Virus record (IMG/VR): IMGVR_UViG_3300036832_000898
Location: 1-23,559 of that record
Reading direction: 5' to 3' (one strand)
Source of the DNA: a virus
DNA: 23,559 nt
In this document: positions 3 to 18,351 of the stretch, one piece after another
How positions within the stretch are numbered: the first letter of the stretch is position 1
Layout of the letters: every line of letters begins with the position of its first letter
Notes under the pieces: model-generated
Seen by the model: the letters and a program-made list of their open reading frames with translations, nothing else
Database searches by the model: none
Told to the model about the DNA's origin: nothing
Made by a program: the position numbers and the translations under genes

Positions 3-830
3 GGGTTTAAGGAGCTTTTCACTGGCCTCTATAATGAAATTGCGGAGGCCCCGAACCAGAGACGGACGCTTCGCATCAACGGCAAGTGGACCGACATCGA
101 CACTGGAACCTTCGACGCCTCCATGGGCGTCGAAGTCAATTCCACCCTAGGAAAGGGCTCCGATCAAGTCCGGATGATGACGCTGAGCCAGATCAAGCAG
201 GATCAGGCGATGGTGTTCACCCAATTCGGGCCGCAGAACCCGGTGGTCGGCATTCCGGAAATGCTCAACACCATCGAAGACATGGCGGCGATCGCCAACA
301 TTAAGAACATTGGCCGGTACTTCAAGCGTCCGCCGCCTCAGGTGCTGCAGCAGATCCAGAGCCAGCCGAAAGAGCCGGACGCGATGACCATCGCCGCTCG
401 AGCGCAATTCGAGAAGGTCAAGGCCGAAGCCGCGCAGGGCGTCGGCGATCAGCAATTGCAATTGCACAAGCAGCAACAGGACGACGCCTACCGTCACGCC
501 CAATTGATGCAGAAAGCCTGGTTCGAACATCAGAAGATCCAGGTCGACCGCGCCAAAGCCGGGCTCCAGGCGATGCAGGGCTCGCCGCAGGAAGACACCT
601 CCGCCGATCACGCCAAAGTCGCGGCCGACGTGCACGCGACCAATGTGAAGGGCGCGACCGATTTCCACGATACCCAGACGCAGGCGCAACTGGCGCGCGA
701 AAAGATGCTGAATGACTACCAGATCGCCCAAATGAAGGCCGAGCAGGCGCGTCAGGCGGCGGAAATGTCGGCTGAGACCGCCATGGCGACGGCGGCGATG
801 AAACCCAAACCGGAAAACAAGAATGGTTAG
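3..830 (+). CDS. Portal protein, P22-like, C-terminal part (5' end outside window)
   Basis: The frame is open from the first base of the window, so this is the last 275 residues of a longer protein. It would form the dodecameric ring at the capsid vertex through which DNA is packaged and ejected. In P22-type portals the region after the stem contains a 'vnvgLGtG' stretch followed by a Gln-containing helix. Here VNSTLGKGSDQ is followed by LSQIKQDQAMVF, then a conserved-looking block ending in IKNIGRYFKRPP. The rest is a long Gln/Ala/Lys-rich helical tail (about residues 110-275 of the visible part), as expected for the C-terminal barrel or coiled coil. The stop TAG (828-830) overlaps the start of the next gene (ATG at 823). 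Most portals of this family exceed 600 aa, so more than half is missing upstream. The portal call rests on family resemblance read by eye. Confidence 0.8.
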   Translation, partial: GFKELFTGLYNEIAEAPNQRRTLRINGKWTDIDTGTFDASMGVEVNSTLGKGSDQVRMMTLSQIKQDQAMVFTQFGPQNPVVGIPEMLNTIEDMAAIANIKNIGRYFKRPPPQVLQQIQSQPKEPDAMTIAARAQFEKVKAEAAQGVGDQQLQLHKQQQDDAYRHAQLMQKAWFEHQKIQVDRAKAGLQAMQGSPQEDTSADHAKVAADVHATNVKGATDFHDTQTQAQLAREKMLNDYQIAQMKAEQARQAAEMSAETAMATAAMKPKPENKNG

Positions 831-1023
831 AAGAGCAGGCGATTTATCCAAGCAAGAGCAGCGCGACTTCGTCGAGCAGCGATTCACCGAGCTGATCGAC
901 TTGGTGCAGGAGCACAATAAGGACGATTCCAAGCTCAGCCAGACGGCGGAACGGGCGCTCACCCACTTGCACACCGCGCAAATGTGGACCGAGCGGGTGT
1001 TGAACGAGATCGAAGAGCCCTAG
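823..1023 (+). CDS. Small helical-hairpin protein, Acb2/Tad1-hairpin-like (candidate anti-CBASS sponge)
   Basis: This 66-aa protein starts inside the portal gene's last codons (8-nt overlap). It has an N-terminal helix with an acidic/aromatic face (residues 8-30), a short turn, then the motif A45-L-T-H-L-H-T-A-Q-M-W55 and a final helix ending in EEP. The pattern 'xLAxTHLxxAxMWxxxA' near the C-terminus of a 60-100-aa phage protein is typical of the Acb2/Tad1 hairpin family as I recall it. Members of that family bind cyclic oligonucleotide second messengers and block CBASS, and they are often encoded among virion genes. The sequence shows the motif and size. Family membership comes from remembered pattern, and anti-CBASS activity is inference. 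It could instead be an unrelated helical morphogenesis protein. Its TAG stop shares the CTAG at 1020-1023 with the stop of the convergent minus-strand gene. Confidence 0.55.
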   Translation: MVRRAGDLSKQEQRDFVEQRFTELIDLVQEHNKDDSKLSQTAERALTHLHTAQMWTERVLNEIEEP

Positions 1024-1322
1024 GCCCTATGGAGCGCCAGATGACATGGGCGACAGAGCCAGACGATGTTGAGCGGCTTCTCGTAGTCGGGATGATGCAT
1101 CTGGGCGACTTCGCTGCTGCAGTTGACGCATGGCTGGCGGGTCAATTTGCCGCGCTTCAAGTAAACATAGGCGTAGGAACGGCAAGCGTCTTTCAGCTTT
1201 TCCGCACTGGAGCGCTGATGTTTTGCGCGCCATTGGCGCTGATAGGCTGCGTGACAGGTGAGGCAATACGCATGGTGCGGGCGGCGTTGGCTGATTCCGC
1301 AGCTGGCGCAAAGAGTTTTCAC
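1020..1322 (-). CDS. HNH-type zinc-binding protein, possible homing or nicking endonuclease
   Basis: This is the only supported minus-strand gene. It is 100 aa with a GTG start at 1322; an in-frame TAA at 1332-1334 prevents a longer form. It shows two zinc-ribbon halves, C5-x2-C8...C20-x2-C23 and C65-x2-C68...C90-x2-C93. Between them lies the block YAYVYLKRGKL, followed by QMHHPDYEKPLNIVWLC and a closing H94...H98. This arrangement (Cys pair, HH-P-D-Y, then WLC-x2-CH-x3-H) is common in small phage HNH-like zinc proteins. Some are free-standing homing endonucleases; others help terminases or are uncharacterised. The first ribbon resembles those of intron or homing HNH proteins. It interrupts an otherwise unidirectional operon between genes at 1023 and 1358, fitting a mobile 'moron' insertion. 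Catalytic ability is not certain: H76/H77 are present, but the middle Asn (N85?) cannot be assigned without alignment. I see no convincing promoter upstream. Confidence 0.75.
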   Translation of the reverse strand: MKTLCASCGISQRRPHHAYCLTCHAAYQRQWRAKHQRSSAEKLKDACRSYAYVYLKRGKLTRQPCVNCSSEVAQMHHPDYEKPLNIVWLCRPCHLALHRA

Positions 1323-1336: not shown

Positions 1337-1357
1337 ATGAAACATAGGAGAATGGAA

Positions 1358-1729
1358 ATGGCTGGCCTACCAATAACGATTAATGGCACTGAAACAGACG
1401 AAACTGGCACGCGCGCAGTCACCATCATCGGCGTGGCGACCATCACCGGCTTAGGCGTCGGCGGCGGACCGATGCCTGGTCAGCCGCCAAATTTCCCCAA
1501 CGTTCCTCCGCATCCAGAGCATCCGATCGGAGGAGGCGGGCCATTCCCTGACAAGCCTGGCTACCCGCCGGTCGTCGGCGGCGGCCCAATCTATCCGACC
1601 GACCCGCCGGTCGAACCGCCGACCGATACGAGCAAGATCGAATGGCATGCGGCCTGGACGGAGCAAGATGGCTGGATCACCGTCGGCATCATCAAGCCGG
1701 AAGGTCCGCATCCGACGCCTTCTCAATAA
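1358..1729 (+). CDS. Pro/Gly-rich small phage protein, unknown function
   Basis: The start at 1358 is chosen because AGGAG (1346-1350) lies 7 nt upstream. An upstream in-frame ATG at 1337 lacks such a site, and another at 1352 is too close. The 123-aa product begins with a short beta-prone segment (GLPITINGTETDETGT, then VTIIGVATITG). It continues with a low-complexity stretch of about 60 residues rich in GGGP, PPHPEHP and PP motifs. It ends with a folded-looking tail, IEWHAAWTEQDGWITVGIIK, followed by PTPSQ. The tail resembles the C-terminus of short phage proteins that accompany portal genes, but no function is known to me. It may be a flexible head-associated or decoration protein. It directly follows the minus-strand HNH gene, so its transcription must read through or restart there. 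Confidence 0.65.
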   Translation: MAGLPITINGTETDETGTRAVTIIGVATITGLGVGGGPMPGQPPNFPNVPPHPEHPIGGGGPFPDKPGYPPVVGGGPIYPTDPPVEPPTDTSKIEWHAAWTEQDGWITVGIIKPEGPHPTPSQ

Positions 1730-1756: not shown

Positions 1757-2008
1757 ATGAGCGACAACGTTCAAGTCTTACGCGAAAAAGCGCTCGGCGC
1801 GCGTAATCTCATTGAGGACCCCATCCTCAATGAGGCGCTGAGCAAAGCCAAAGAGCTGGTCATGGCTGAGATGGTGCTCAACCGGACGCCGGACGCGCGC
1901 AAACTTGAACTCGTGCAATTGTACAAGGCGATCGAGCTTTTGAAGCCGATGCTGCAGACAATCATCAACGATTACCAAGCCGCCAGCCGGAGGCAGGCCC
2001 GTGGCTGA
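1757..2008 (+). CDS. Small helical protein between portal and scaffold genes
   Basis: This protein of 83 aa is predicted almost wholly helical (LREKALGARNLIEDPILNEA, then KLELVQLYKAIELLKPMLQT, then a basic RRQARG end). It sits directly before the scaffold and shares 8 nt with that gene's GTG start. Several podovirus head operons carry a helical protein of this size at this position, usually unannotated. It may be a minor head or scaffold-associated factor, but nothing in the sequence identifies a reaction or partner. The ribosome site is weak (GAGAAAAAG about 10-18 nt upstream). Confidence 0.7.
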   Translation: MSDNVQVLREKALGARNLIEDPILNEALSKAKELVMAEMVLNRTPDARKLELVQLYKAIELLKPMLQTIINDYQAASRRQARG

Positions 2009-3251
2009 GGGCGTCGATAACGCCGCCGCCGCGTTTCGGGCGGAGATTCAGCCGCAATCGCCGATTGCGGACCGATCGCGCGACGCGGACACCGGGCGAT
2101 TCACTCAGGTGCGCGAACGGCCCGAGCCGATGTTCGCGCCGCGGCCGCTCGAAGGCGATCCGGAAACCGGAGATCTGAGCGACGGCGGCGACGATCCGCG
2201 TCTCGCCGCCCATGAAAGGAAGGCAGCCGATGGTTGGACTGACGAAAGGGATGCCGAAGGGGCTCGACAAACGACCGCCCTCCGTCAAAGGCCGGGTAAA
2301 GAACATGGTCGCGATGCCGGGACGGGATCAGAGCATGCCGCCGCCGACGACCGACACGCGGGAGCCGAAGCGGAGCCGGAGCGGCTTGGTGACCAACGGA
2401 CCGGGGACGATCAAGACGCTCAGGAATCAGACGAAGGGCCCAGTTCCGAAGGGCCACCAGAGCCGGACGCCGAAAGCTGGCAGGTAATCCGCAACGGCAA
2501 GCCGGTCGAACAGCTGGAAGTGACGATCGACGGCCGGCCGCAGCCGGTCACTCTGGATGAATGCGTCAAAGGCTATATCCGCGAGCAGACCTTTCACCAG
2601 CGGATGACTCAAGTCGACCAGGCTCGCCAAGCGGTGCAGGGCGAAATCCAGACGATCGGCCACAAGCGGCAGGAATTGGAGGACAAGCTGATCCTAGCTG
2701 ATCGGATTCTGGCTGATATGACGCCGCCGGAGCCGGACTGGGATCAGGAATTCGCCATCGACGCCAAGAAGGCCCGCGACAATCAGAAGGCGTTCCAGAG
2801 CGTCTATCACAAACGGGCGATGATTCAGCAGGCTATGGCTGAGGAAAGAGCCAGAGAGCAGCAGGAGTATGATAAGCAAGCCAACGACTATGCCGTGAGG
2901 GAATGGAGCCAGTTTGTTGCGGAATCAGGCTTTCGCAACAAGCAAGAAGTCGACGAAGCCGTGGCGATGATGCACGACTATGCGCTCAAAGAAGGCTTTT
3001 CCTCAGCAGAAATCCATGCCGTCTACGACCGCAGAATGCAAAGGGTATTGCGGAAGGCGGCATTGTACGACCTGTCTCAGGCTCATCCGCCTAAGGCAGT
3101 TTCACCAGACAGTGGCAAGACATTGATACCCGGTAGCGCTACGCCCATAGGGAATGCGCCACGCCGACAGATTGATGCCGCGCAGAAAAGACTGGCCAAG
3201 ACAGGGCGTTTGGATGACGCCGCGCTAGTAATGAAGCAGTTCATCAGATGA
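2001..3251 (+). CDS. Head scaffolding protein
   Basis: The GTG start at 2001 has CCGGAGG (1987-1993) 7 nt upstream and overlaps the preceding stop. The 416-aa product would direct procapsid assembly and then leave the head. Its layout fits podoviral scaffolds. It has a disordered N-terminus containing DADTGRF, a charged acidic linker (about residues 70-155), and a small beta motif (IRNGKPVEQLEVTIDGRP, then VTLDECVKGYIREQTFHQRM). Long coiled-coil-prone helices follow (residues 205-345). A basic C-terminal helix (RLAKTGRLDDAALVMKQFI) resembles the coat-binding tail of scaffolds. It lies immediately before the major capsid gene, the usual order. Within the linker (about 2212-2487) third-position GC falls to roughly 57% by hand count, while an overlapping +1 frame reaches about 81%; see the separate entry. 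Confidence 0.8.
   Translation: MAEGVDNAAAAFRAEIQPQSPIADRSRDADTGRFTQVRERPEPMFAPRPLEGDPETGDLSDGGDDPRLAAHERKAADGWTDERDAEGARQTTALRQRPGKEHGRDAGTGSEHAAADDRHAGAEAEPERLGDQRTGDDQDAQESDEGPSSEGPPEPDAESWQVIRNGKPVEQLEVTIDGRPQPVTLDECVKGYIREQTFHQRMTQVDQARQAVQGEIQTIGHKRQELEDKLILADRILADMTPPEPDWDQEFAIDAKKARDNQKAFQSVYHKRAMIQQAMAEERAREQQEYDKQANDYAVREWSQFVAESGFRNKQEVDEAVAMMHDYALKEGFSSAEIHAVYDRRMQRVLRKAALYDLSQAHPPKAVSPDSGKTLIPGSATPIGNAPRRQIDAAQKRLAKTGRLDDAALVMKQFIR
2230..2487 (+). CDS. Candidate overprinted gene inside the scaffold gene, basic 85-aa protein
   Basis: This frame lies wholly inside the scaffold gene in a different phase. The ATG at 2230 is preceded by AAAGGAAGG (2215-2223) with a 6-nt spacer, one of the best ribosome sites in the window. 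The frame stays open to TAA at 2485-2487. The product is strongly basic and Pro/Gly-rich (MVGLTKGMPKGLDKRPP, later KRSRSG and RTPKAGR), with about twenty Lys/Arg and four acidic residues. My hand count of third-position GC over 2212-2484 is about 81% in this frame against about 57% in the scaffold frame. That is the reverse of what a silent shadow should show. Function is unknown; a nucleic-acid-binding or scaffold-linked role would be guesswork. An upstream in-frame ATG at 2212 overlaps the ribosome site and is less likely. The basic composition could also simply be the +1 reading of an acidic linker. Confidence 0.4.
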   Translation: MVGLTKGMPKGLDKRPPSVKGRVKNMVAMPGRDQSMPPPTTDTREPKRSRSGLVTNGPGTIKTLRNQTKGPVPKGHQSRTPKAGR

Positions 3252-3261
3252 GGCATCAATC

Positions 3262-4263
3262 ATGGCCGTTAACAATGTCGAAAGCACGGGTAAGGTAACC
3301 TCTGCCTTTACCACCTATTCCGCGACTGGTAACCGCGAAGACTTGTCAAACGCGATCTACAACATAGATCCGTTTGATACGCCGGTGATGTCCGGCTCTA
3401 AGCGCCGAACCACCAAAAATCGAACATTCGACTGGCAGACCGAATTTCTGCCGACCGTCGATCCGAACAATGCGCAGCCGGAAGGTTTCCTGCTGCTCAA
3501 TTCGCCGGCGCAGCCGACCTTAAGGCAAAGCAACGCTACGCAAATCAGCAAGCGGGACGCCACGGTTTCTGGTTCGCAAGAAGAAGTGGACGCGGCCGGC
3601 AAATCGTCGGAAATGGCCCACCAGATGGCGATGACCGCCAAAGTGCTAAAGAGCGACCTGGAGACGATCGCCTGCTCGCGTCAGGCGCTCAACGCCGGCA
3701 ACGACTCGACCCCGACGCCCCGAACGACCGAAGCCATCTGCCACTGGCTGGGGCGCGCCACCGACCGCACCGGCGCGGTCAACGGCGCCGTCGCGCCCGG
3801 AACGTCGCTGCCGGGCGCCTATACGGCGACGGCGGTGTTTCCGACGCCCGGCGCCGCGGTGCAGATCACCGAAGCGATGCTCGGCGCGGCGATGCAGCAG
3901 GCCTATATCAATGGCGCGAGCCCGACCCTGTTGATCGTGCCGCCTGGCGTGAAACGGACGGTGTCAACCTTCACCGGCCGGTCGACCACCCAAGTCCTGG
4001 TCGGCAAGACGGAAGTGGTGTCGACGGTCGACGTGATCGCCACCGATTTCGGCCGGATCAAAGTCGCCCCGTCGCGCTGGATTCCGACCGATGTCGGGCT
4101 CTTGCTTGATCAGGACTATCTTGCCTTCGCCTTTTTCCGCAATTTCCGCCAGTTCCTGATGGCTCGGGTCGGCGATGCGGAGACGCGCATGATCGTGGTC
4201 GAATGGGGCATCGAGATGCGCAATCCGCTGGCGCATATCCTGTTCAACTCGATCAAGCCGTAA
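3262..4263 (+). CDS. Major capsid protein, SU10-type (DUF5309/PF17236-like)
   Basis: The 333-aa protein is the main shell subunit, expected to have the HK97 fold. The N-terminal region reads NREDLSNAIYNIDPFDTPVM, the hallmark of the SU10 major-capsid family (an 'edLsn.i..idP.dTPf' block). Further along are FDWQTEFL (E-loop region), a helix-rich centre, LLIVPPGVKRTVSTF and a C-terminal block with IKVAPSRWIP and VVEWGIEMRNPLAH. Length agrees with the family (about 300-350 aa). The start ATG follows TGAGG, which overlaps the scaffold stop, with 8-nt spacing. Its stop TAA overlaps the next start (TAATG). No frameshift or fused accessory domain is visible. Function is family knowledge. Confidence 0.9.
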   Translation: MAVNNVESTGKVTSAFTTYSATGNREDLSNAIYNIDPFDTPVMSGSKRRTTKNRTFDWQTEFLPTVDPNNAQPEGFLLLNSPAQPTLRQSNATQISKRDATVSGSQEEVDAAGKSSEMAHQMAMTAKVLKSDLETIACSRQALNAGNDSTPTPRTTEAICHWLGRATDRTGAVNGAVAPGTSLPGAYTATAVFPTPGAAVQITEAMLGAAMQQAYINGASPTLLIVPPGVKRTVSTFTGRSTTQVLVGKTEVVSTVDVIATDFGRIKVAPSRWIPTDVGLLLDQDYLAFAFFRNFRQFLMARVGDAETRMIVVEWGIEMRNPLAHILFNSIKP

Positions 4264-6301: not shown

Positions 6302-9186
6302 ACATCATGAAATGGCTTTGTGCTGGGTTCGTTCCCGTACTGTTCGTAGCTGTTACAGCTTTTACAGTCGGGGCTCAGGCGCAGACCGCGTCGAACAATC
6401 CGTCGACGGCGAAGATGGGCATCGATCACTCGAGCGATCCGGAGCCGGTGTTTGTGCAGGACGCTTCCAAGATTTGGGCGCAGATGGGTTCGGTCAACAA
6501 GACGACGCATGCCTTCACCCCGGTCGGCGGCGCGGCCGGCGGCGGCGGCGGCGGCGGATTGTCGGAAGGGCCATGGGGCTCGCCGCCGCCTGGTTACGCA
6601 ACCTACATCGGCATTCTGGCCGACCCATCTGGCAATATGATCGGCCCGAAAGGCTCGATCTGGGGCACCCCGCCAAACGGCGGCGTGGTGCTCGATGTCA
6701 ACGCCAATGTGCTCAACGTTGCGCATATCATTTGCGATTCCGGCTGTAGCAGCGGCACAGGCGGCTCGGGCTCGAACGCTTCGGTCGGCGCGATCCCGGG
6801 CACGGCGCCGGCCTCAGCGACCTATATGGGCATGCTGGTCAATGGCGGCGGCATGGTCGGCGTCAGCGGTTCGCCTTGGGGCACCGCTCCGACCGGGCTT
6901 AATGTCTTGGGCGTCAACGCCCAGATCTTAGGAACGCTGCCCGGATTTGCCACGCCGCCGTCGTTCAACTGTGCTTCCGGCTGCACCAGCGGCGGCGGTC
7001 CGGTGACCGCGGCCAACAATTCCTATGCCGATGGCGCGCTGGTCACCATGGGGACCAAGGCCGACCCGGCCTGGACGACCGGAGCTGGCTCGGAAATCGC
7101 GATCTTAAAGACGATCGCCAGCTCAGTTGCGGCGCTGCCGCCCAATGCGTCGACCGCCTCCAATCAAACTAGCGGCAGCCAGAAAACCCAGATTGTCGAT
7201 AGCGGCGGCACGGTGATCGGTTCGACTAGCGGTGGCTTTAATGTCAATTGCATCGCTGGCTGCTCGGGCGGTTCTGGAGGCTCGAATGCGTCGGTTGGCG
7301 TGGTCTCGCCGCCTGCCCCGGCGCCGACATCGGCCACTCTTAACGGCATGGCGATCTCCGGCGGCAATATGGTCGCCGCCTCCGGCTCGGTCTGGGGAAC
7401 CGCCCCGACAACGCTCAGCGTATTTGGCGTCAACGCCAATGTGTTGTCTTCCGTGCTGCCGCCCAATGCGGCGACCGCGTCCGGTCAGCCGGCGCTCAAC
7501 GCCGATGGCGGCGCAAACGCGCACATCATGAATTTCCCGGCCACCCAGCCAATCAGCGCGGCCGCATTGCCGCTGCCGCCCAATGCAGCGACCGCGTCCG
7601 CTCAACCGGCGATCAATGGTGACGGCGGCTCGCAAACCCATGTGATGAATTTCCCGACCACCCAAGCGGTGTCGTTGGCGTCCGCGCCGCTGGCGGCCAA
7701 TGCTGCGACCGCCGCCAATCAGAACTCCACCGCCCCGGGCACGAGCGCCGCGGCGGCGCAGGGCGTGCAGGGCGTCACCGGCGGCGTGCCGTTCCTAACC
7801 AATCCCGGCACGGCGTCGCTCTGGGGCCTCTATGGGCAGGGAGCGGCGACCAGCGGTCAAATCGGCGGGCTCATGCTGGGCGCGGTCACCACCGCCGCGC
7901 CGGGTTACACAACCGGCAATTCGTCGCCCGTGTCGCTCACGGCGGCGGGCGAACTCCGGGTGAACTGCACCACTGGCTGCACTGGCGGCGGCGGAGGCGG
8001 CACTTCTTCGAACTTCGGCTCGACCTATCCCACCGCCGGCACCGCGGCTGGCTTCCAATATTTGGCCACGCCGCCGACTCTGACCAACAACACCATGGTT
8101 GCTGGTCAAGCCGACGTGAACGGCTACCTCAAAGTCGATTGCATCATTGGTTGCGTCAACACCGCCATCGGCGGCACGCCGCAGACCACCAATAGCGCCC
8201 CGATCAGCATTTCCAGCGCCACCACGACGCAAATCATTCCGGCTTTAGCCAGCAATTACACCTATATCACCCAGCTCAACGTGATGGCTGGATCGGCGGG
8301 CGGCCTGACGTTGGAATATGGCACCGGCACGAATTGCGGCACCGGCACGACCGTGCTCACCGGCGCCTATCCGTGGCCGGCCTTTGGCGGCGTGTCGATC
8401 GGCACCGGCTTTGGCCCGACTTTCGGGACGATTCCGATCAATAATGCGGTCTGCATCGTCAGCACCGGCGCGCCCGTGCAGTTAGCCGGGTCGATCAGCT
8501 ACACCCAATCGACGACGCTGATCTCTCCTTGGGGCGGTCCGGGCGGCTCGGGCGGCGGCGGCGGAGGCGGCGGCAGCACAACGATTACCGGGCCGCTCGG
8601 CCCATCGACGCCGCCAGCCTCCGCGGTGGCGATCACCGATACTGGCGCGCCGATCACTGGCCAGACCTTGGGCTCCGGCGGTCAAGGCCTGGTTGGCTGG
8701 CTATCGCAAGTCGTTGCCAATATGGCGCAGGGTGTGTTCACTCCGGGCGGGACAGCGCCGGCTCAAGGCGTCGCTACCGGCGGTCTCGATATCAACGGCT
8801 TGCCGCAGATCCGGGCGATCGCCCCCTGTGATCAGCCCAATAGCTATTTTGATTTCGCGACCGCGGCCGGGACGGGGCAACTGGTCGCCGGCGTGGCCGG
8901 CAAGAAGATCTATCTATGCGCCGGCACGACGATCGTGACTTCAACTGCGGCGCATGTGTCGTTCATCGAAGGTTCGGGCTCGAGCTGCACGACGCCAGTG
9001 TCGGTCTATGGCAATGCGGCGACGGTCGCCGCCACCAGCGGCATGGCGTTCGCCGCCAATGGCGGCGTGCAATTGACGGGAACCCGTCCGGCGGCGACTC
9101 AGACCACAGGCAATGCGCTGTGCGTCCTGTTTGACACCGCCAATTCGCCACAGGTCAATGTCCATGTCGCCTATGTTCAGAAATAG
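6298..9186 (+). CDS. Large Gly-rich repetitive protein with Sec signal peptide (secreted fibre/adhesin-like)
   Basis: The start at 6298 overlaps the previous stop by ATGA and gives a typical signal peptide: MNIMKWLCAG, a hydrophobic core (FVPVLFVAVTAFTV) and a likely cleavage after GAQA near residue 28. The frame also opens upstream, without support. The mature part (about 930 aa) is low-complexity Ala/Gly/Thr/Ser with ordered repeats. Blocks built around PWG or WGT(A/P)P followed by GVNA(N/Q) recur (Trp 93, 122, 194, 366). Five C-x3-C motifs sit just before Gly runs (146/150, 225/229, 318/322, 557/561, 615/619). A tandem 39-residue repeat starts 'PPNAATAS' (Asn 390, 429, 468). Poly-Gly runs separate segments. 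The C-terminal 150 residues look more globular (AGKKIYLCAGTTIV, SSCTTPVSVYGN). This architecture suggests a fibrous surface protein stabilised by small disulfides. No catalytic domain is recognised. Its role as virion fibre or exported protein is unresolved. Confidence 0.75.
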   Translation: MNIMKWLCAGFVPVLFVAVTAFTVGAQAQTASNNPSTAKMGIDHSSDPEPVFVQDASKIWAQMGSVNKTTHAFTPVGGAAGGGGGGGLSEGPWGSPPPGYATYIGILADPSGNMIGPKGSIWGTPPNGGVVLDVNANVLNVAHIICDSGCSSGTGGSGSNASVGAIPGTAPASATYMGMLVNGGGMVGVSGSPWGTAPTGLNVLGVNAQILGTLPGFATPPSFNCASGCTSGGGPVTAANNSYADGALVTMGTKADPAWTTGAGSEIAILKTIASSVAALPPNASTASNQTSGSQKTQIVDSGGTVIGSTSGGFNVNCIAGCSGGSGGSNASVGVVSPPAPAPTSATLNGMAISGGNMVAASGSVWGTAPTTLSVFGVNANVLSSVLPPNAATASGQPALNADGGANAHIMNFPATQPISAAALPLPPNAATASAQPAINGDGGSQTHVMNFPTTQAVSLASAPLAANAATAANQNSTAPGTSAAAAQGVQGVTGGVPFLTNPGTASLWGLYGQGAATSGQIGGLMLGAVTTAAPGYTTGNSSPVSLTAAGELRVNCTTGCTGGGGGGTSSNFGSTYPTAGTAAGFQYLATPPTLTNNTMVAGQADVNGYLKVDCIIGCVNTAIGGTPQTTNSAPISISSATTTQIIPALASNYTYITQLNVMAGSAGGLTLEYGTGTNCGTGTTVLTGAYPWPAFGGVSIGTGFGPTFGTIPINNAVCIVSTGAPVQLAGSISYTQSTTLISPWGGPGGSGGGGGGGGSTTITGPLGPSTPPASAVAITDTGAPITGQTLGSGGQGLVGWLSQVVANMAQGVFTPGGTAPAQGVATGGLDINGLPQIRAIAPCDQPNSYFDFATAAGTGQLVAGVAGKKIYLCAGTTIVTSTAAHVSFIEGSGSSCTTPVSVYGNAATVAATSGMAFAANGGVQLTGTRPAATQTTGNALCVLFDTANSPQVNVHVAYVQK
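6574..7440 (+). repeat. Degenerate protein-level repeat, WGT(A/P)P...GVNAN blocks
   Basis: Four related segments occur within the 6298 gene. Three carry 'TYMG/TLNG..(V/I).GG.MV...GS.WGTAP...v.GVNA' with Trp codons at 6661, 6877 and 7393; an abbreviated one has Trp at 6574. They are 72 and 172 codons apart, with C-x3-C/poly-Gly units between. They look like diverged copies of one beta-strand module. Confidence 0.6.
7453..7728 (+). repeat. Tandem 117-bp (39-codon) repeat, two full units plus a partial third
   Basis: Units begin at 7453, 7570 and 7687 with an exact 117-bp period. Each opens with codons for (L/A)(P/A)NAATA. The first two also share Q-P-A-(L/I)-N-x-D-G-G...H-(I/V)-M-N-F-P-x-T-Q. 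The third keeps only the head of the unit. A related lone head (LPPNASTASNQ) lies near 7135-7167. The repeat is part of the coding region and may vary in number between relatives. Confidence 0.8.
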
Positions 9187-10603
9187 CGCGCTGGCGCTCG
9201 CCGTCCTGATCGGCCTGGCTGGCGGCCCGATCAGCGTTGCGGCTCAGGAGGAAATCATTGGCGGCGGCGTCTACCGGCCGCCCAATCCACCGACTGGCCT
9301 CACTGCGCCAATCATGGCGACGTTTGTGCTGCCTGGATCGGGAACCAACCTCCAGTATGGCGGGCAAATCGGGAGTTGGGTAAGCGGTCAACTGTCCGCA
9401 ACGGCGACGAATCGCCTTATACCGATTCCCATCGCCGGAACGATCTATGGGCTCTACAGCAATCTGGGATTAGTGAATTCCGCGGCGACGATCACCGATG
9501 TGATCAATGGAAACGCCGGGACAGTCACCTGCGCTTATACGCCGACCACTGCGCCCTTTTCCTGCAACGATGCGACTCATTCCGACGCGGTCAATGTCGG
9601 CGATACCTTTGAATGGAAATGGGACCCGCATGGCGTTGCCTGGCTGCAAAATGTCACCTCTTCGGTGTCTTTTCTGTTGACCAGCACGAGCCCACAGCAG
9701 GGCGCGCTACTGATGGGCGTGTGGCCGGGCGTTGGCGCTCAGGCGGCTAATTATCTCGCGCCGGGCGGCGGCGCGACCGGCAACGCCACGGAAATAACGA
9801 TCTCCGCCATTTTGCCGGAAGCGATTACTGTTACGGGCTTGTTCGCCTTGACCAACGCAGCCGAGAACGCCACCGACGCGCATGTCTTTACCGTGTGCAA
9901 AAATGGCTCATCGACTTGTTCGGCAAGTCCGTCGTCTGGCATGTTTTGCACGCCGGGCCTCAGCGCATCCGGCGGTTGCTGCACCGATACGACGGGCTCG
10001 GCTCACCACATCGGCGGCGGCTCCGGTCCAGCCTGCACTTTGGCCAGTTCGGTCAGTTTCGCGGCCGGCGACACCGTTTCGGTTCTGATGTCTTGTGCGG
10101 GAGGAACCGACTGCGCCACGGTCAATCCTGGAATTGGCTTAGCCTATACGCCCGGCGTGCCTAACCAAGCCGTTCTAACTGCGCAAGCGACCGTCGCCCT
10201 GTCCAGCTGGTTTGCCGGCTTTAATGGACTCATCGTCAGCGGCCAGTTTAACTATAACATAATCCCAGCGCTTGGCAGTAAGTCAATCATTTTCGCCAAT
10301 TTGATCGCCTGCACCAGCGTGGCCCCGGGCGGAACGGCGGCGCGCATCATCACATCGCAGAGCTCGACCGCTGCAAACACGGCGCCGACCAATGTGTCAG
10401 GCGGGACGGTTGCGACCATTACCGGCAGTCCTGCCTGTCCGGGCAGCAATGGGCTCTCTCTGTTCGGCGCGCAAGACACCAACTCCGGCCATGCATGGAC
10501 TGCGGTCTCTGGCGGTCTGGTCGACAATGCCTGGACTTTGACCGGCTCGCCGGTCACCGGCAATGCGAACTGGAAAACGGCAATCACGGCGAAAATTCAA
10601 TGA
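9173..10603 (+). CDS. Cys-containing beta-rich protein with Sec signal peptide, unknown function
   Basis: Three in-frame ATGs fall inside the end of the previous gene (9158, 9164, 9173). The last gives the cleanest signal peptide: MFRNSALALAVLIGLAGGPI, with cleavage likely after SVAA, before QEE. The others only add MSMSP. None has a strong ribosome site, so the start is uncertain by 15 nt. The mature protein (about 450 aa) is Ala/Gly/Thr-rich and predicted all-beta, with many short strands (SGQLSATATNRLIPIPIAGT, VSVLMSCAGG). It has unusually many Cys for a phage structural protein, including a cluster FCTPG...GGCCTDTTG (about 10-nt positions 9945-9990). It ends with NANWKTAITAKIQ. Two halves look weakly similar ('gDTfewkw', 'GDTVSVLMS'), hinting at a duplicated domain. 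It overlaps the next gene by ATGA. I do not recognise a family; a secreted, disulfide-bonded fibre or receptor-binding subunit is inference. Confidence 0.7.
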   Translation: MFRNSALALAVLIGLAGGPISVAAQEEIIGGGVYRPPNPPTGLTAPIMATFVLPGSGTNLQYGGQIGSWVSGQLSATATNRLIPIPIAGTIYGLYSNLGLVNSAATITDVINGNAGTVTCAYTPTTAPFSCNDATHSDAVNVGDTFEWKWDPHGVAWLQNVTSSVSFLLTSTSPQQGALLMGVWPGVGAQAANYLAPGGGATGNATEITISAILPEAITVTGLFALTNAAENATDAHVFTVCKNGSSTCSASPSSGMFCTPGLSASGGCCTDTTGSAHHIGGGSGPACTLASSVSFAAGDTVSVLMSCAGGTDCATVNPGIGLAYTPGVPNQAVLTAQATVALSSWFAGFNGLIVSGQFNYNIIPALGSKSIIFANLIACTSVAPGGTAARIITSQSSTAANTAPTNVSGGTVATITGSPACPGSNGLSLFGAQDTNSGHAWTAVSGGLVDNAWTLTGSPVTGNANWKTAITAKIQ

Positions 10604-13600
10604 AGCCTTTTCTCGTTTGGGTCTCTGTGATTGCGGCGGCCGTCTGGTCGGCCAACGGATATGCCTACCTGCAGCGCGGCGGCTCGACCGGCGGCGGAGG
10701 GGGGCCGGTGGCGACGGCCTATTATGTCGACAATTCGGCTGGCGCCGACACCAACCCGGGCACCCAGGCGCTGCCATGGAAGACGCTGACGAAAGTCAAC
10801 GCCGGACGATACAACCCGGGCGATAGCATCAATTTTCAAGGCGGCCAGACCTTCACCTTGGCGACCGCAGTGGCGTGCGGCGCGGGTGCGCAGGCGACGA
10901 CCGTCGATCTTTGTTTCAATGCGTCGAACCTATCCGGGACGGCGACCACGCCGGTGGTCATCCAAAGCTATGGGGCCGGTCAGGCAACCATTCAGGCGAC
11001 CGGCAATAGCGCCGCTTTCATGGCCTATAATATCGGCGGTTTCACTCTGCAAAATCTGGTCTTCGCCGGCAGCGGCGCGACCACGCCCATGGCAGCCAAC
11101 GCCTGGGGCGGCGTGCTGATTGAGAATGATCTTAGCGGCAATGTGCGGCTCGACGGGGTCACGGTCAGCCATCTCAGTGTGCATGGTTTCGCCAATGACG
11201 GCTTGAGCCTTCAGGGACTCGCGGGCAGCTCAGGCTATCTAAATCTGAACATCTCTTACATCACCGCCTACAACAACACCGGCGGCACGGACGGCAATGG
11301 CGGCGCTGGCATCGATCTGCAGGCCGCGCCGAATCGCGGCAATGGCGCGACCAATGCGGCCTATCAGAGTGTCACGATCGATCATTGCTATGCGCATGAC
11401 AATTCTGGCTTCGGCACGGCGGCATGGACCGGCGAAGGCATCCATTTAAGCAATGTCAATGGCGGCGTCGTCCAATATAGCCTTGCGGCAAATAATGGGG
11501 CCAGCGGCGCGGATGGCTTTGGCATTGATGTCGCCGACTCCAACAGTGTGACCATTCAATACAGTGAATCATATGGACAAGTCACCAACAATAGTTTTGA
11601 CGGCGGCGGCTTCAATTTCGACGGCGGCGTCAGCAACTCAACCATGCAATACAATTATTCTCACGACAACAACGGGCCAGGCTTTCATCTTTATAGTTTC
11701 AATGACGGGACGATTACCGGCTCGTCAGGCAATATCGTCCGCTACAATATTAGCCAGAACGATGCGAACAAGGCGTCCATTGGTTATGGCGGGATTACGC
11801 TCAATTCGAGCGCCAACCTGACCGGCGCACAGGTCTATGGCAACGATATCTATGCGTCTAACACCACATCGTTGGGAGCAATCGGCGTCACCGGTCCAAG
11901 CGCCAGCACGATCGGGGCCAATATCTCAAACAACATCCTTTATGCGCTGAGCGGCGTGACGCTGGTGTCGAGTAAGGGCGCAGATGCGACGCCTGCTAGC
12001 GTTGTGTTCACCGGCAATGACTATTACACGCCTGGTTCGTTCAGCATCAAATGGGGCGCCAACGCCGGCACGTCTTATGCGAGCCTATCGGCCTGGCAGG
12101 GCGCTGGTCAGGAGAAAGTGTCAGGCAGTCCGGTCGGAACCACCGGCAACCCGAACCTAACCAATCCTGGCGGCGGCACAACCGCCAACGCCACGCCTGG
12201 ACCGCCATCGTCGCAGGCTTCGGCTTATAAAATCACCAGCGGATCAGCGGCGAGCAACGCTGGCGTGGCGATCACTTCGCCCGGTCTCAATGACTTTTTC
12301 GGCTTAGCTTTGGGCGCCCCGCCGTTGAATATCGGCGCAGATGACACGCCAGTCGGCGGAGGCGGTGGTGGCCCGGGTTCGGCGCCGGTCAATGTCGCGC
12401 TGCCGGAGATCCAGGGCCTGGATGTCGTGTCGAGCCTGCCGCTCACCATCAAGCCCGGGTCATGGACCGGTTCGCCAACGCCGACTCTGACCTATTCCTG
12501 GCACATGATCGGCGGCCCGCAATTGAGCACCGCATCGAGTTATGGGCCGCTCACCTCCGCACAGATCGGGCAGAGGCTGCAGGTCGACGAGACGGCGACC
12601 AACGCCAGCGGCAGCGCCACGGCGATCAGCGATTTTATCGGACCGGTGGAGGCTTCTTACCCGCCAGCGCCGTTTGTCGGCGCGACCGATAACGCCGGCC
12701 ACAGCCTGGCTCCAACGGCCTTACCGGTTTTTCCGGCGCACTTTTTACAGAACGGGCACGCGATCTGGCCTGGTTGTCCTCCGCCGCCAGTCGCGCCGAC
12801 CAGCACGGCGGCGAATGTCTGGTGGTTCGACCCGGATAATGGACAGACCCAGACGGCTGGGGCGACTGGCCATGTCGCCAGTCCGTTTAAGGACGTGACC
12901 GCGATCTTTGGCACGGTGACCGGCTATCCGTCCGGCGGCCTGTTCCCCGGCACCATCAAGCCGGGCGACGCGGTCTATATAAAACCAAAGGCGGATGGCA
13001 GTTCGCTCGGGACTTTGACTTTAAATGGCGACTATTCGACCAGCACCGGCACGACGACCGGGACCACCCAATTTACCTGGATCATGGCCGATCCGGCCGC
13101 GGCCAAGAAGCCGGTCCTGAACCAGCTTTCGATCGCTGGATCGGCCGGCTTTTTGTTTAAGGGCTTGGGGTTTGAATGGAATGCCCTGCAACCCGGCGCA
13201 TCTCAGAACGCGAACACGATCCTGGTGCAGGGCACGCAAAGTGCGCCGACGCATGACATCATCCTTGAAGACAATGGCGTCACTGGCTGGATTGGCCATT
13301 CGAGCGACGATTGGAGAGCAGGCTATCCGAAGACCGGCGGCCATTCCGACGGCACGATCTTCACCGCCAGCCCTTATGATAAGACCCACCAAGATCCGCC
13401 GCAGGTGTCGGTGTCTGCTTCGGCCAATTCAACTCAGCTTTTCTTACAAAATACTCTGTTTACCGATACGTCTTATTATTTCGTTACGGCCCCTGGATAC
13501 GGCTATCAAGACGGGCCCAGCACCGGCATCCCGAATGGCACGGTGATTAAGAATTATCAGGGCAATGCCGCCTATGTGCCGAAAGGCAATGTGTCGAGCT

Positions 13601-16600
13601 CCTCCGCTTTGCCGGCGGAGGTCGATAACAACGCCTATTTCGCCACCGACACCAAGCATATGTGGGTTGGGGTGAGCGGCGCTTGGGCAGATAAGGGCTT
13701 GGCCTATATGACGATCGGAACCTGCGATCCGAGCGGTGCGGCCAATGCCTTCAACGGCCAAAGTGACGCCCAAAATGGTTGCCCGAGCACGCTGACCGGA
13801 AACGGCACGCCGTTTGTTGGCTGCGATCCGAAAGTCACCAGCTATGGCCCATCGCCGGCTTGCGCGACCTCAAACCCGCCAGTGTGGAACGGCGCGACCC
13901 GGGCCATATCGGCAGAAAATATCCGTCTTTATCCGGCTATGAACATTGCGCCGGCGGGCTACTGGAACGGCGTCGATTGGGCGAACCAGATTTACGGCAT
14001 TCACGTCGCTGGAGTCGCAGGGCCCAATAATCTCGACCCCACCTATGGCAACGATGTGATTGGCAATTCATGTGTCTCGCTCAAAAACAATACGATTAAA
14101 GCCACGCAAATTGGAATTATGGTCGAGCTTATGGCAAACGTCGTTCTTTACAATAATAAGGTAAGATACAAGTCACAGGACGCAATGCAGATATTTACGA
14201 TGCATCGCATCATCATTGCTAATAATCTGATATCTGATGGAGCCTATCTACTGCAGCATCCTGATCTTATGCAATTTGCGCAGCATGGCGGCCCCAGTTC
14301 GGGCCTGGGATCGCATTACTATAATCATGCAGTAATCAACAACGAATTCTATAGTTATCTTGATCCGGATAACCCGTTTCCAATTGGCGCGCAGGGACCT
14401 GTTCAGACCGATGGGGTGTGGGATGGCGATTATCTCTGCTGCAATATTATATTCAACTCCAACTATCCCCCCGGCATAAACAGCGGAGGCGGGTTGAACG
14501 TCCTTGTGCATAATGACGCGTTCCATGATGATGATGGGTTTGGGGGTCAAGGCCGTATCTATGTTAACCAACAGCATAAATTTAATGAGACCAGCACTAG
14601 TCCCGGAGGAGCGCAGCCGCCCAATTCCGTCATGGAGAATAATGTCGCGAATGGCATTTATCGCGTCACAACAAGCCTCAATAGTGCAACGGGCACGACA
14701 TGCTCCGGCGACGGCAACACGGTCGGCGGCAACATATCGCTTCCGACTTTTAGTCCTACAGCCACGCCCGTCACCTTTAGCCCATGGAATCAATATTTCT
14801 GCGGCGACCCCTATCTTTTTGGTTCGACTGGCACTGGTACAGGAAAGGTCGGCAACGTGACGACCAGCGGCCCCTTTAATGACGTGGCGATTTGGAGCGG
14901 GGACGACTGGCGAACGGTTACTGGCGTAACGTCGCCGGTCACCGCTTATAATCCCGTGGTTCTGCCCGGATTTCCCTTTCCGAGCGGCCGGGTCAGCTGC
15001 GTGCAGAACGAATTTAAAATGACGAATTGTGCGGCGGGAGTGCCGATGCTGAACATGCGGCCGAACCCATCGTTTACCGGCGCGTCATCATCGCCGAGCA
15101 GCTATGCTGGCTTTGCCAAGAATGGCTCCGGTTCTGGCTCGGCTTGCAATCTGCCAACCGGCGGCGCAGTCGGCGATAAATGGATGGTCCCGTTAAGCAC
15201 CTCCGGCAATGCTGGCATAACCCAATGCTCGCCGGTGGGCTCCTATCCGGCTGGCGTCTATACCAAAATCAATACTGGCACGGGATCGGCCTCATGGAGT
15301 TTTGCCCCGTTTAACCCATCGCTGATCGGTAACGGCAAAACGCTTGGGGCTCAGGCGCCGCCGGCCGATCACGGCCGTAAACCGTGGGCGAATCCGCCGG
15401 CCGCCGGCGCCTATGAAGGCGGGACGGGCGGCGGAGGCGGAGGGACGACCCCGACGCATTATTGGTATGCGGCCACCGCGCCAGAATGCAACCCGAGCTG
15501 CACCGCCTATCCCAGCGGCGCTGGCTACATCAATGTCTATGACATCGACAATGGTTTCACCAGAGTCAAAACCATCACCCTGCCGACGACGGTTAAGGGA
15601 ATTCGTGGGCTATTCGCCGACTCGACCGGCACGCATCTTTATGTGCCCAACTATGGCGTAACGTCCGTCAGCACGAATACAACCAGCGGCCGTCTGTTGA
15701 GCTGGAACCTCACTAACGGCAGCGCTGATTACGATCAGAACTATTCGCTGGCTGCCATCGATAGGGGTTGTATCTCGAGCGATGATTCGACGATCTATGA
15801 GCCCGCAGGGGAGAATGTGCAGACCGGCACCTACGCCAGCGCGTGGTATGTGCTCAACGCGGCGACGGGCGCGCAGACCAGCCCTAACATAATCAACCTG
15901 ACCAGCGGGGCGGTCAGGCCACACAATACGGTTTGCTCGCCAAGCACGATTTTCATGGCCGCGATCGATCTGCATGGCGGCCCATCGGCGACCCATTCAG
16001 TCACCATGTACAACACGTCCTCCCATGCCCAGACCACGGTGGGCCCGTTCACCGCCGGCGACGGCCGGGTGCGGCCCTTCACCGTCGATGTTCCGCATGG
16101 CCTGGTTTACGTGAACCTGGAAGATTGGGTCGGCTTTGCGGTCGGCAACACGTCCGGAACCGTTCTCTACGACTCACAGAAACCGCCCGGTTATACCGAG
16201 CCGGGCACCAGCAACGTCGTCAACTCCCATGGCATTGCGATCACCCCGAACGGCAATGATTTGTATGTGGCCGACCCCAACATGGGGGCCGGCTCAAGCA
16301 CGGCTTGCGGCGTCGAGCATTGGGACGTTTCGGGCGTGCGGAGCGGCTCGGCGCCGGTCTACAAGAGCTTCATTTCGACGCCCTGCGTGTCGAGCGTTCA
16401 GAGCGGCAAGACGCCGGGTTGGCTCTATGCGACCAATGATGGCAAATACATCATCACCGAGACCGGTGAGGTGATCGCCACTCCCGCCGCTCCATCCCCC
16501 AACACCATCGTTTTCACCTTGGCTGATCCGAACCAAGCCGATAGCGCAGCCAGCGGACACATGATCACACGCTACGCAGCCGAGATAGATAGCAGTGGCA

Positions 16601-18351
16601 CGGCTGGCGTTCCATGCACTCAGACGTATTGTGTCGATCAAGCAAATGGAAGCGATTCCAATCCCGGCACGGCTGCGCGCCCATTCAAGAACCTTACTTC
16701 CGTACCGACTCTGACAGCGAACCAGAGCGTAGGGCTGGCTTGCGAAACCCCTCCAGCGCATTGGCGTCAGCAGATCAGTCAGGGGTCGGCTCCCAATGGA
16801 ATCACCATAACCGGTTATGGCCCCTGCACATCGGTTGCACAAATCATCGCGGGCGCTACGAGCAACCTGCCAATTATTGATGGGGCGGATATTATTACGA
16901 CTGGCTGGACCAAGACCGCAGGGCAGACCAATGTTTACCAAACCAACTCGGCGCTAACGTTTGGCACTGCGTGTGGTGGCGCGAACACGGATTATAATTT
17001 CATTCAAAATCAAGGTGGACCGTGCCCCACCACTCCGCCTTATGGCTCGTCTAATGCTTTCGAAAACGTATGGGAGGATGACGGTTCGACTACGACTGGC
17101 GGGAAGTTCATGAGCTGGCAGTCGAGCATAGCCAACGTCGATGCTAATGCTTGTTCTTATTACGTTCCTAACTTGGTCATTAGCGGTTCGAGTGATGGCT
17201 TCTGGGCGATACCGCCTTCAGGAGTCATGTACATCCACGGCTGCAACCCGTCCGCTCTCAATCCGAGCACCAACGGTTACGTATATGACTATGCTAATCG
17301 GCAATACAACATAGGACTTGGCAGCGGCCTATGCACCATGACTTTTCTGGAGGGTCGCAAGGCCAACTGGGGCGCCGGCGCTCTTACATGCAGCGCCTTG
17401 AACAGCGCTGATGTCTTCCATGACTTGATTGGCAGACAGTACTCAGAGGCGGCCTTAGGAGTTGTCGCCGGTTCCACGGTGACTAATTCCATCTTTGTCG
17501 ATGGGTATTTTCCTTCGCCCATAGATCACGGCCATACCGTCGGCGGAAGCCCGATCTTGATTTACGATAATGGAGTGTCAACAGGGAAAAACTCTAGTAT
17601 CAGCAACAACTATTTTCAGATGGATCAGAGCCTTCCTAACAATGATATCGATACTTTGATCAGCCAGAATGACGCAATGACTGGAGACGGAGCGCTGACA
17701 TATTCGAACAATTGGATCATCGGTAAAAACGGAGCCGCTCACCAATATGTTGGAGCCAATACGTTTGCATCGCAGACCTATGATACTAATTATTTTTACA
17801 ACACGCAAGGTCTTGTATTGGTCGGGACTCCGGTAACATTTAAAAATAATATTGCATATGATCAGGGATGTCCAGGAGCGGTGGGCACATGTCCCAACAG
17901 AGGCGGGTTTGAAGTGCAAAACACCAGTCTACTCACGTTAACCAATAATCAAATTTGCGAAACAAATACCTATTATGGCCTTACACGAACCGACATAGCG
18001 GGTGGCCATATCACCTCTTCAGGAAACAAATTCTATTTGGTGACGCCGGCCGGATATGCTGCGGTATTTGCGAGCGATAATAGTGTGACGATATCTTCCC
18101 AGAATGACGATTTCGGCGGGGCTGGCGATACGGTAACCAACTATGCAACCTCTGGCTCGACTTGGACCACGCCAAGCAGCCCGGCGGATATCTATGAAAG
18201 CAAAACCCATTGGACATGGAACGGCGCCAGCTTGGCGAGCCTGTCGGCATGGAAGGCCGCCGCCGGTGTCTCCGATCCCAGCAGCATCACGACTGGCGGC
18301 TCGGCCTCATCGGCCTGTAGCGCAATGCCAACCATACCGAATGTGCAATAA
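10600..18351 (+). CDS. Giant secreted modular beta-helix/propeller protein (2583 aa), tail-spike or adhesin-like
   Basis: The start ATG overlaps the previous stop and opens a signal peptide (MKPFLVWVSVIAAAVWSANG, cleavage near YA). Modules in order follow. (1) Residues about 41-585: right-handed parallel beta-helix opening with YYVDNSAGADTNPGTQ and closing with ASLSAWQGAG. (2) About 594-685: Ig-like domain with KPGSWTGSPTPTLTYSW and ATNASGSAT. (3) About 687-1604: second, longer beta-helix with inserts (GDAVYIKPK; NNTIKATQIGIMVE...). (4) About 1618-2001: YVTN-type beta-propeller (GLFADSTGTHLYVPNYG, HGIAITPNGNDLYVADP). (5) About 2007-2583: third beta-helix opening YCVDQANGSDSNPGTAARPF and closing ASLSAWKAAAG. 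Poly-Gly linkers mark the signal/helix, helix/Ig and helix/propeller joints. Beta-helices in phages usually bind or cleave surface polysaccharide, but catalytic residues cannot be assigned. AT-richer stretches (about 14080-14640, 16600-18110) suggest later-acquired parts. It overlaps the next gene by TAATG. It could be a virion spike or an exported lysogeny factor. Confidence 0.8.
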   Translation: MKPFLVWVSVIAAAVWSANGYAYLQRGGSTGGGGGPVATAYYVDNSAGADTNPGTQALPWKTLTKVNAGRYNPGDSINFQGGQTFTLATAVACGAGAQATTVDLCFNASNLSGTATTPVVIQSYGAGQATIQATGNSAAFMAYNIGGFTLQNLVFAGSGATTPMAANAWGGVLIENDLSGNVRLDGVTVSHLSVHGFANDGLSLQGLAGSSGYLNLNISYITAYNNTGGTDGNGGAGIDLQAAPNRGNGATNAAYQSVTIDHCYAHDNSGFGTAAWTGEGIHLSNVNGGVVQYSLAANNGASGADGFGIDVADSNSVTIQYSESYGQVTNNSFDGGGFNFDGGVSNSTMQYNYSHDNNGPGFHLYSFNDGTITGSSGNIVRYNISQNDANKASIGYGGITLNSSANLTGAQVYGNDIYASNTTSLGAIGVTGPSASTIGANISNNILYALSGVTLVSSKGADATPASVVFTGNDYYTPGSFSIKWGANAGTSYASLSAWQGAGQEKVSGSPVGTTGNPNLTNPGGGTTANATPGPPSSQASAYKITSGSAASNAGVAITSPGLNDFFGLALGAPPLNIGADDTPVGGGGGGPGSAPVNVALPEIQGLDVVSSLPLTIKPGSWTGSPTPTLTYSWHMIGGPQLSTASSYGPLTSAQIGQRLQVDETATNASGSATAISDFIGPVEASYPPAPFVGATDNAGHSLAPTALPVFPAHFLQNGHAIWPGCPPPPVAPTSTAANVWWFDPDNGQTQTAGATGHVASPFKDVTAIFGTVTGYPSGGLFPGTIKPGDAVYIKPKADGSSLGTLTLNGDYSTSTGTTTGTTQFTWIMADPAAAKKPVLNQLSIAGSAGFLFKGLGFEWNALQPGASQNANTILVQGTQSAPTHDIILEDNGVTGWIGHSSDDWRAGYPKTGGHSDGTIFTASPYDKTHQDPPQVSVSASANSTQLFLQNTLFTDTSYYFVTAPGYGYQDGPSTGIPNGTVIKNYQGNAAYVPKGNVSSSSALPAEVDNNAYFATDTKHMWVGVSGAWADKGLAYMTIGTCDPSGAANAFNGQSDAQNGCPSTLTGNGTPFVGCDPKVTSYGPSPACATSNPPVWNGATRAISAENIRLYPAMNIAPAGYWNGVDWANQIYGIHVAGVAGPNNLDPTYGNDVIGNSCVSLKNNTIKATQIGIMVELMANVVLYNNKVRYKSQDAMQIFTMHRIIIANNLISDGAYLLQHPDLMQFAQHGGPSSGLGSHYYNHAVINNEFYSYLDPDNPFPIGAQGPVQTDGVWDGDYLCCNIIFNSNYPPGINSGGGLNVLVHNDAFHDDDGFGGQGRIYVNQQHKFNETSTSPGGAQPPNSVMENNVANGIYRVTTSLNSATGTTCSGDGNTVGGNISLPTFSPTATPVTFSPWNQYFCGDPYLFGSTGTGTGKVGNVTTSGPFNDVAIWSGDDWRTVTGVTSPVTAYNPVVLPGFPFPSGRVSCVQNEFKMTNCAAGVPMLNMRPNPSFTGASSSPSSYAGFAKNGSGSGSACNLPTGGAVGDKWMVPLSTSGNAGITQCSPVGSYPAGVYTKINTGTGSASWSFAPFNPSLIGNGKTLGAQAPPADHGRKPWANPPAAGAYEGGTGGGGGGTTPTHYWYAATAPECNPSCTAYPSGAGYINVYDIDNGFTRVKTITLPTTVKGIRGLFADSTGTHLYVPNYGVTSVSTNTTSGRLLSWNLTNGSADYDQNYSLAAIDRGCISSDDSTIYEPAGENVQTGTYASAWYVLNAATGAQTSPNIINLTSGAVRPHNTVCSPSTIFMAAIDLHGGPSATHSVTMYNTSSHAQTTVGPFTAGDGRVRPFTVDVPHGLVYVNLEDWVGFAVGNTSGTVLYDSQKPPGYTEPGTSNVVNSHGIAITPNGNDLYVADPNMGAGSSTACGVEHWDVSGVRSGSAPVYKSFISTPCVSSVQSGKTPGWLYATNDGKYIITETGEVIATPAAPSPNTIVFTLADPNQADSAASGHMITRYAAEIDSSGTAGVPCTQTYCVDQANGSDSNPGTAARPFKNLTSVPTLTANQSVGLACETPPAHWRQQISQGSAPNGITITGYGPCTSVAQIIAGATSNLPIIDGADIITTGWTKTAGQTNVYQTNSALTFGTACGGANTDYNFIQNQGGPCPTTPPYGSSNAFENVWEDDGSTTTGGKFMSWQSSIANVDANACSYYVPNLVISGSSDGFWAIPPSGVMYIHGCNPSALNPSTNGYVYDYANRQYNIGLGSGLCTMTFLEGRKANWGAGALTCSALNSADVFHDLIGRQYSEAALGVVAGSTVTNSIFVDGYFPSPIDHGHTVGGSPILIYDNGVSTGKNSSISNNYFQMDQSLPNNDIDTLISQNDAMTGDGALTYSNNWIIGKNGAAHQYVGANTFASQTYDTNYFYNTQGLVLVGTPVTFKNNIAYDQGCPGAVGTCPNRGGFEVQNTSLLTLTNNQICETNTYYGLTRTDIAGGHITSSGNKFYLVTPAGYAAVFASDNSVTISSQNDDFGGAGDTVTNYATSGSTWTTPSSPADIYESKTHWTWNGASLASLSAWKAAAGVSDPSSITTGGSASSACSAMPTIPNVQ

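Follow-up and report, generated by a model that had tools for sequence, protein, structure and literature searches.

The 66-amino-acid protein encoded at positions 823-1023 of the window (the whole stretch of DNA analysed here, a virus record from IMG/VR that is 23,559 bases long) appears from its sequence to belong with the Acb2/Tad1 hairpin proteins as a compact, divergent relative, and its gene sits in an accessory slot behind the phage portal gene. Distant homology to that family is very probable. The most likely function for the protein is that of a sponge for a nucleotide immune signal, to which we give about an even chance; CBASS antagonism specifically is less likely than this and goes beyond the evidence. 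A preliminary description of the same DNA had called the product an Acb2/Tad1-like hairpin protein and a candidate CBASS antagonist. It was right in kind on the family, and its overall interpretation is partly supported.

The hairpin gene and its neighbours

The window opens within the portal gene and continues with genes for scaffold, major capsid protein, lysozyme, adaptor and tail. Its capsid protein is 67% identical to the counterpart in Ochrobactrum phage vB_OspP_OH. The features around the hairpin gene are as follows.

3..830 (+): portal protein, C-terminal part (SU10_portal), truncated by the start of the window; Pfam 3.5e-23, PHROG 5.5e-13
823..1023 (+): hairpin-protein gene, 66 aa, a probable divergent homologue of Acb2/Tad1 hairpin proteins
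850..912 (+): predicted helix 1, residues 10-30, with E18 at the place of the family's invariant Lys
931..1008 (+): predicted helix 2, residues 37-62
955..987 (+): A-L-T-H-L-H-T-A-Q-M-W motif, residues 45-55, with T47 matching T68 of T4 Acb2
1020..1322 (-): small endonuclease-like ORF, an insertion following the hairpin gene; phrog_2340 7.6e-14
1337..1729 (+): Pro/Gly-rich 130-aa protein of unknown function, with no Pfam or PHROG match; relatives were found
1757..2008 (+): small helical protein, in this phage group usually the lone gene separating portal from scaffold
2001..3251 (+): head scaffolding protein; phrog_3927 8.3e-23
3262..4263 (+): major capsid protein (SU10_MCP); Pfam 2.4e-74

The hairpin gene starts with an ATG at 823, which lies 8 nt inside the portal ORF ending at 830. 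That the gene directly follows the portal within the head operon, as had been described, is borne out. The 66-aa ORF with an A-L-T-H-L-x-x-A-x-M-W motif was likewise confirmed from the sequence, the residues being A45-L46-T47-H48-L49-H50-T51-A52-Q53-M54-W55. Close copies of the protein were found in three further IMG/VR records at 94, 92 and 83% identity, and dN/dS was 0.06-0.26 in the six pairwise comparisons among the four copies of the gene, which is under purifying selection. These copies and ratios indicate that the ORF is a gene and not a chance frame.

Chance does not commonly produce such a motif. The pattern A.[TSNG].{4}A.MW, looked for in 6338 ORFs of related loci (a pool in which two records were entered twice), occurred in 10 ORFs, and all 10 were copies or relatives of the hairpin gene or family members recognised by Pfam. 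Against 50,697 phage records, tblastn with the 66-aa protein returned two chance matches only (E 5), and megablast with the whole window returned no match.

Several other parts of the window were noted along the way. The endonuclease-like ORF at 1020-1322 is present in the window and in one related locus (L001) and absent from two others (L002 and L003) in DNA alignment. Window and L001 carry nearly the same inserted DNA despite 15 differences between their hairpin genes, which suggests a recent mobile insertion. Between 6145 and 10603 (+) there are two long ORFs of 1013 and 496 aa with no Pfam or PHROG match, the longer of which contains a 117-base tandem repeat at 7455-7664. The ORF at 10495-18351 (+), 2618 aa long and with no PHROG match at 0.001, may encode a protein of the virion interior or one used in ejection.

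Homology to the Acb2/Tad1 hairpin family

Searches with the single sequence gave weak matches. The best among 24,736 Pfam models was PF24729 (Acb2_Tad1_hairpin), at an E-value of 0.0041 and 17.7 bits; the curated cut-off is 27 bits, so the protein is filed here as a divergent homologue only and not as a Pfam member. On the three close copies the same model gave 13.2 bits, 12.8 bits and no match (E 0.11, 0.14 and none), and LicP_NPro scored better there. The sole PHROG match was phrog_717 (E 0.13), which holds both T4 Vs.4 (2.3e-32) and PaP2 p26 (9.8e-33). PADLOC gave no match. Sequence searches of the PDB with the window protein and with a profile of four window-type sequences returned a designed repeat protein and chance matches only, with no direct match to Tad1, and a profile search of genome contigs with the clade alignment matched 30 stretches and 0 relatives. 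Direct single-sequence scores cannot alone decide the family.

Intermediate sequences gave a stronger signal. Among 80 loci gathered by capsid similarity, phmmer found divergent homologues in L024 (2.5e-9), L042 (1.2e-8) and L049:1154-1402 (3e-4). The genes in L024 and L042 occupy the same slot as the window gene and have PF24729 as their top Pfam match, at 0.002 and 0.009, while the L049 gene, which lies upstream of its portal, passes the Pfam cut-off at 1.6e-12 and 47.9 bits. A gene between the portal and the small head gene of another locus (L056:4232-4468) also passes it, at 2.2e-6 and 28.2 bits. Later scans added one more relative (L103), for which PF24729 came second (0.004) after SbcD_C (0.0032).

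Profiles were then compared with profiles. Using hhalign, seven window-type and sister sequences were aligned with 12 family sequences at a probability of 95.6% and an E-value of 1.3e-8; one of the 12 (L106, from phage Aaphi23) is itself under the Pfam cut-off, at 17.0 bits. With gap-trimmed alignments of the same two sets the score was 48.5, against 10.1 and 7.8 for reversed decoys and a maximum of 18.0 in 200 column shuffles. Taken by themselves, the four window-type sequences scored 34.7 against the 12. They scored 37.7 against a set of 58 FNPSGD-type members of PF24729, 200 shuffles of which reached at most 19.6. That set came from 80 loci, which gave 75 ORFs by the pattern A..[AGSC].MW.V[KR] plus an FN motif, with five dropped, and 58 distinct sequences.

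HMM searches of the 6338 ORFs agreed in both directions. The window-type HMM found L049 at 2.9e-7 and L056 at 3.7e-7, with the next unrelated ORF at 0.8, and the family HMM found L001, L002 and L003 at 5.1e-4 to 4.5e-3, with the next unrelated ORF at 4.5. The 58-member FNPSGD-type model scored the window protein at 17.9 bits, T4 Vs.4 at 15.1 and PaP2 p26 at 9.4, with unrelated ORFs at 5.9 or below.

The connection to proven Acb2 proteins is less direct. Five T4/PaP2-type sequences scored 47.0 against the 58 FNPSGD-type sequences, and the four window-type sequences scored 13.8 against the same five, inside the range of the shuffles (top 16.9). Because that last score falls within the shuffles, the link to T4 Vs.4 and PaP2 p26 is an indirect one that runs through the FNPSGD-type members. 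A combined alignment also found p26 (7e-19) and Vs.4 (8e-18) in the PDB, but both were already in the alignment, which makes the result circular, and it was not used.

An HMM search had been named in the preliminary description as one way to check its family assignment. The match that was found is weak and under the Pfam cut-off when made directly, and strong when made through relatives and profiles. The assignment therefore stands in the form of a distant homology, carried by hhalign, shuffles and reciprocal HMMs, and does not stretch to membership by the PF24729 cut-off or to a direct reach to proven Acb2.

Predicted structure

The AlphaFold2 model of the 66-aa protein is a two-helix hairpin with a mean pLDDT of 84.7. 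The features of the hairpin family are thus present as two antiparallel helices in the model and, in the sequence, as A-x-T and A-x-M-W on the second. VIA-align superposed the model on T4 Vs.4 (7uq2) with Z 7.1 and an rmsd of 2.5 over 61 residues, at rank 5 and tied with unrelated hairpins. The model of the recognised member L049 behaved in the same way (Z 7.2, rmsd 3.0, 60 residues, likewise tied with unrelated hairpins), so the predicted fold agrees with Acb2 but does not discriminate. The Acb2 p26 chains were not among the VIA-align matches listed, which has no bearing on this reading. Foldseek of the model against the PDB and BFVD gave no match with E < 0.001; several of the BFVD matches are named Acb2/Tad1 hairpin proteins and are too weak to count.

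The slot behind the portal

In the records listed, phages of this group usually have the small head gene after the portal, followed by scaffold and capsid. By hand count of these, a hairpin-family gene lies between portal and scaffold in 5 of the 60 records having both (L002/L010, L003/L009, L024, L042 and L056), the 60 being ranked by capsid similarity to the window and so not a random sample. They derive from 62 loci with portal and scaffold markers, two records having been present twice, and still include one locus (L066) with a negative gap that was mis-assigned. Other phages of the set have a terminase-like or unknown ORF in the slot. The hairpin slot is accessory, and its distribution is patchy. 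For an accessory gene in an exchange slot, counter-defence is a better fit than an essential head protein, but this falls short of proof.

The terminase-like ORF is long (about 440 aa) and lies between the portal and the small head gene in L014, L019, L032, L033, L045 and L046; it was called by eye from the sequence, and in L032 from broken frames and the length of the gap.

PF24729 was also searched for in the complete records from which the 80 loci were taken; 10 of these records had a match at E 0.01 or better, and 6 had one over the cut-off. Six-frame searches gave weak matches in two genomes (G012 at 0.005 and G039 at 4.5e-4) and another in Microcystis phage MJing1. Two loci (L091 and L092, from records G006 and G021) have a second hairpin-family form elsewhere in the genome, at 66.4 and 61.8 bits, with a spacing of Tyr and Lys as in T4 Vs.4.

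The FNPSGD-type protein is very common in viral contigs: one scan found 494 stretches that encode a relative, 80 of which were kept (L110-L189). The annotated phage records examined call it hypothetical. Its genes were tested in 50 of 80 records, and 14 of these had a match to the terminase family PF03237, which by hand count lay no more than 1 kb from the hairpin gene in 6/14 and no more than 5 kb away in 9/14. The preliminary description had stated that Acb2-type sponges often lie right behind the portal. This agrees in part with the FNPSGD-type members, which are often near the terminase, but T4 vs.4 and PaP2 gp26 are outside the head operon.

Candidate pocket residues

Four polar positions are nearly invariant in the 58 FNPSGD-type sequences: a Lys on helix 1 (58/58), an Arg 15 residues before the Trp (58/58), a Thr 8 before the Trp (57/58) and a Lys 3 after it (58/58), the conservation of the last being partly built in, as a basic residue there is part of the pattern that selected the set. 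The window protein keeps two of the four, with E18 in place of the Lys, Q40 in place of the Arg, T47 for the Thr and R58 as the basic residue. The counterpart of T47 is Ser in L001-L003 and Asn or Gly in the sister sequences, which have Lys or Arg at the helix-1 Lys position, Lys at the Arg position and Lys after the Trp. There is no Tyr anywhere in the 66 residues of the window protein.

Residues were matched by HMM alignment and by counting from the Trp, as the combined alignment misaligns the N-termini of the T4/PaP2 sequences. PaP2 p26, whose binding residues we take to be Y11, K26 and R67 while resting no argument on them, was anchored wrongly in the automatic count, with Ala at the assigned Trp position, and was left out of it. 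T4 Vs.4 itself has Asp at the Arg position of the family, so Q40 is not a strong objection to binding.

In T4 Acb2, according to the part of PMC12657230 that was available, Y8A is binding-deficient and T68M lowers affinity. The second of these positions is the one to which T47 of the window protein corresponds. The charge reversal at E18 and the missing Tyr are strong objections. They make it unlikely that a T4-like cyclic-dinucleotide pocket is intact, and an altered ligand or lost binding has to be considered. With two of the four otherwise fixed polar residues changed, the ligand or the affinity is probably unlike that of T4/PaP2 Acb2.

Possible functions

If the protein is a sponge, the steps would be as follows. 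The hairpin gene is probably translated together with the portal through the start/stop overlap. On the pattern of Acb2 and Tad1, several hairpins would assemble into an oligomer, with an immune signal derived from a nucleotide bound at the interfaces. While portal and capsid are being made late in infection, the sponge would sequester the alarm signal of CBASS, Thoeris or a similar system before its effector fires. A more specific proposal is that of a compact sponge subfamily which does without the Tyr and the helix-1 Lys, binds some other nucleotide signal, and has its portal-coupled translation timed to capsid-sensing defences. Taken with all of these details, this is speculative and rather unlikely.

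The protein may instead be a small head-assembly or portal-associated protein that has, or once had, the hairpin fold without any role in counter-defence. The gene does overlap the portal and sit among head genes, and its small neighbour at 1757-2008 is itself a head-operon protein. Yet most relatives manage without a hairpin gene, the usual occupant of the gap among the records listed being a homologue of the 1757-2008 gene, and hhalign of the window-type profile against that neighbouring helical family found no similarity (0.4%). We regard a head-assembly role as improbable, while taking it seriously.

A narrower form of the sponge reading is that the ligand is Thoeris-type gcADPR or another nucleotide and not the cyclic di- and trinucleotides of CBASS. 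The Tad1 structure 7uav reads C-A-L-T-H-V-E-E-A-L-M-W where the motif lies (E 0.046, in a search with a mixed profile of which the window protein is part), and a capsid-sensing TIR-based system, as described in the available part of PMC11312562, would suit expression with head genes. Against it, the N-terminal beta domain of Tad1 (PMC12043709, in the portion available) is missing from the 66-aa protein, and neither that protein nor the profile of four sequences matched Tad1 directly in sequence searches. This restriction of the ligand seems distinctly unlikely.

Nucleotide binding could also have been lost in the window clade, leaving a former sponge or a retasked protein. E18 and Q40 at positions fixed in all 58 FNPSGD-type sequences, together with the absent Tyr, are what one would expect from such a loss, but purifying selection on the gene speaks against it, and the proven T4 Vs.4 has also given up the Arg. 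Loss or retasking strikes us as quite improbable too.

A chance likeness of a short amphipathic hairpin with no homology to Acb2/Tad1, as the marginal single-sequence scores and the similarly sized matches to LicP_NPro and other weak Pfam models might suggest, is already disfavoured and very improbable given the agreement of two libraries, reciprocal HMMs, decoy-controlled profiles and a Pfam-recognised relative that occupies the same slot.

What a sponge in this slot would mean

If the protein is a sponge, the Acb2/Tad1 hairpin family extends to sequences that present profile cut-offs miss, and its members with changed pockets offer natural variants with which to learn what residues determine the choice of ligand. 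The slot behind the portal of SU10-portal phages would then be an exchange site for branches of the family and a place to seek counter-defence genes. If it is not a sponge, the case warns that a short motif is not enough to call a hairpin protein Acb2.

Comparison with known systems

In the open-licence literature, as far as it was available and with subscription papers outside the search, no mention of the window-type subfamily was found; nor was a binding test of FNPSGD-type members found in the literature.

Tad1 (7uav) is a sponge for gcADPR and cyclic nucleotides and shares the A-L-T-H-x-x-x-A-x-M-W hairpin motif with the window protein. The parts of PMC12043709 and PMC10419184 that were available describe it as hexameric, with a beta domain, and as holding gcADPR and cyclic nucleotides, and the first of the two places an N-terminal antiparallel beta-sheet domain ahead of the hairpin. 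The window protein, in contrast, has only helices in its model and is about half as long.

Acb2 (T4 Vs.4, 7uq2; PaP2 p26, 8h2j) is a hexameric sponge for cyclic di- and trinucleotides, which are held between protomers (PMC12043709 and PMC10419184, in the parts available). The window protein shares with it the hairpin fold, according to the model, as well as T47 at the place of T68 and the basic R58. It differs in having no Tyr at the place of Y8 and no helix-1 Lys, in a sequence link that is indirect only, and in its position in the genome, since the T4 and PaP2 genes are outside the head operon and the window gene is in it.

The FNPSGD-type members of PF24729 (such as L049, L056 and the protein of Pasteurella phage Pmp11) differ from the window protein in carrying the FNPSGD segment, which it lacks, in the Lys and Arg that are fixed among them where it has E18 and Q40, and in its score under the Pfam cut-off. 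Like the window protein, they are two-helix hairpins of fewer than 90 aa with A-x-T ... A-Q-M-W on helix 2 and a basic residue three after the Trp, and they are often encoded near terminase or head genes.
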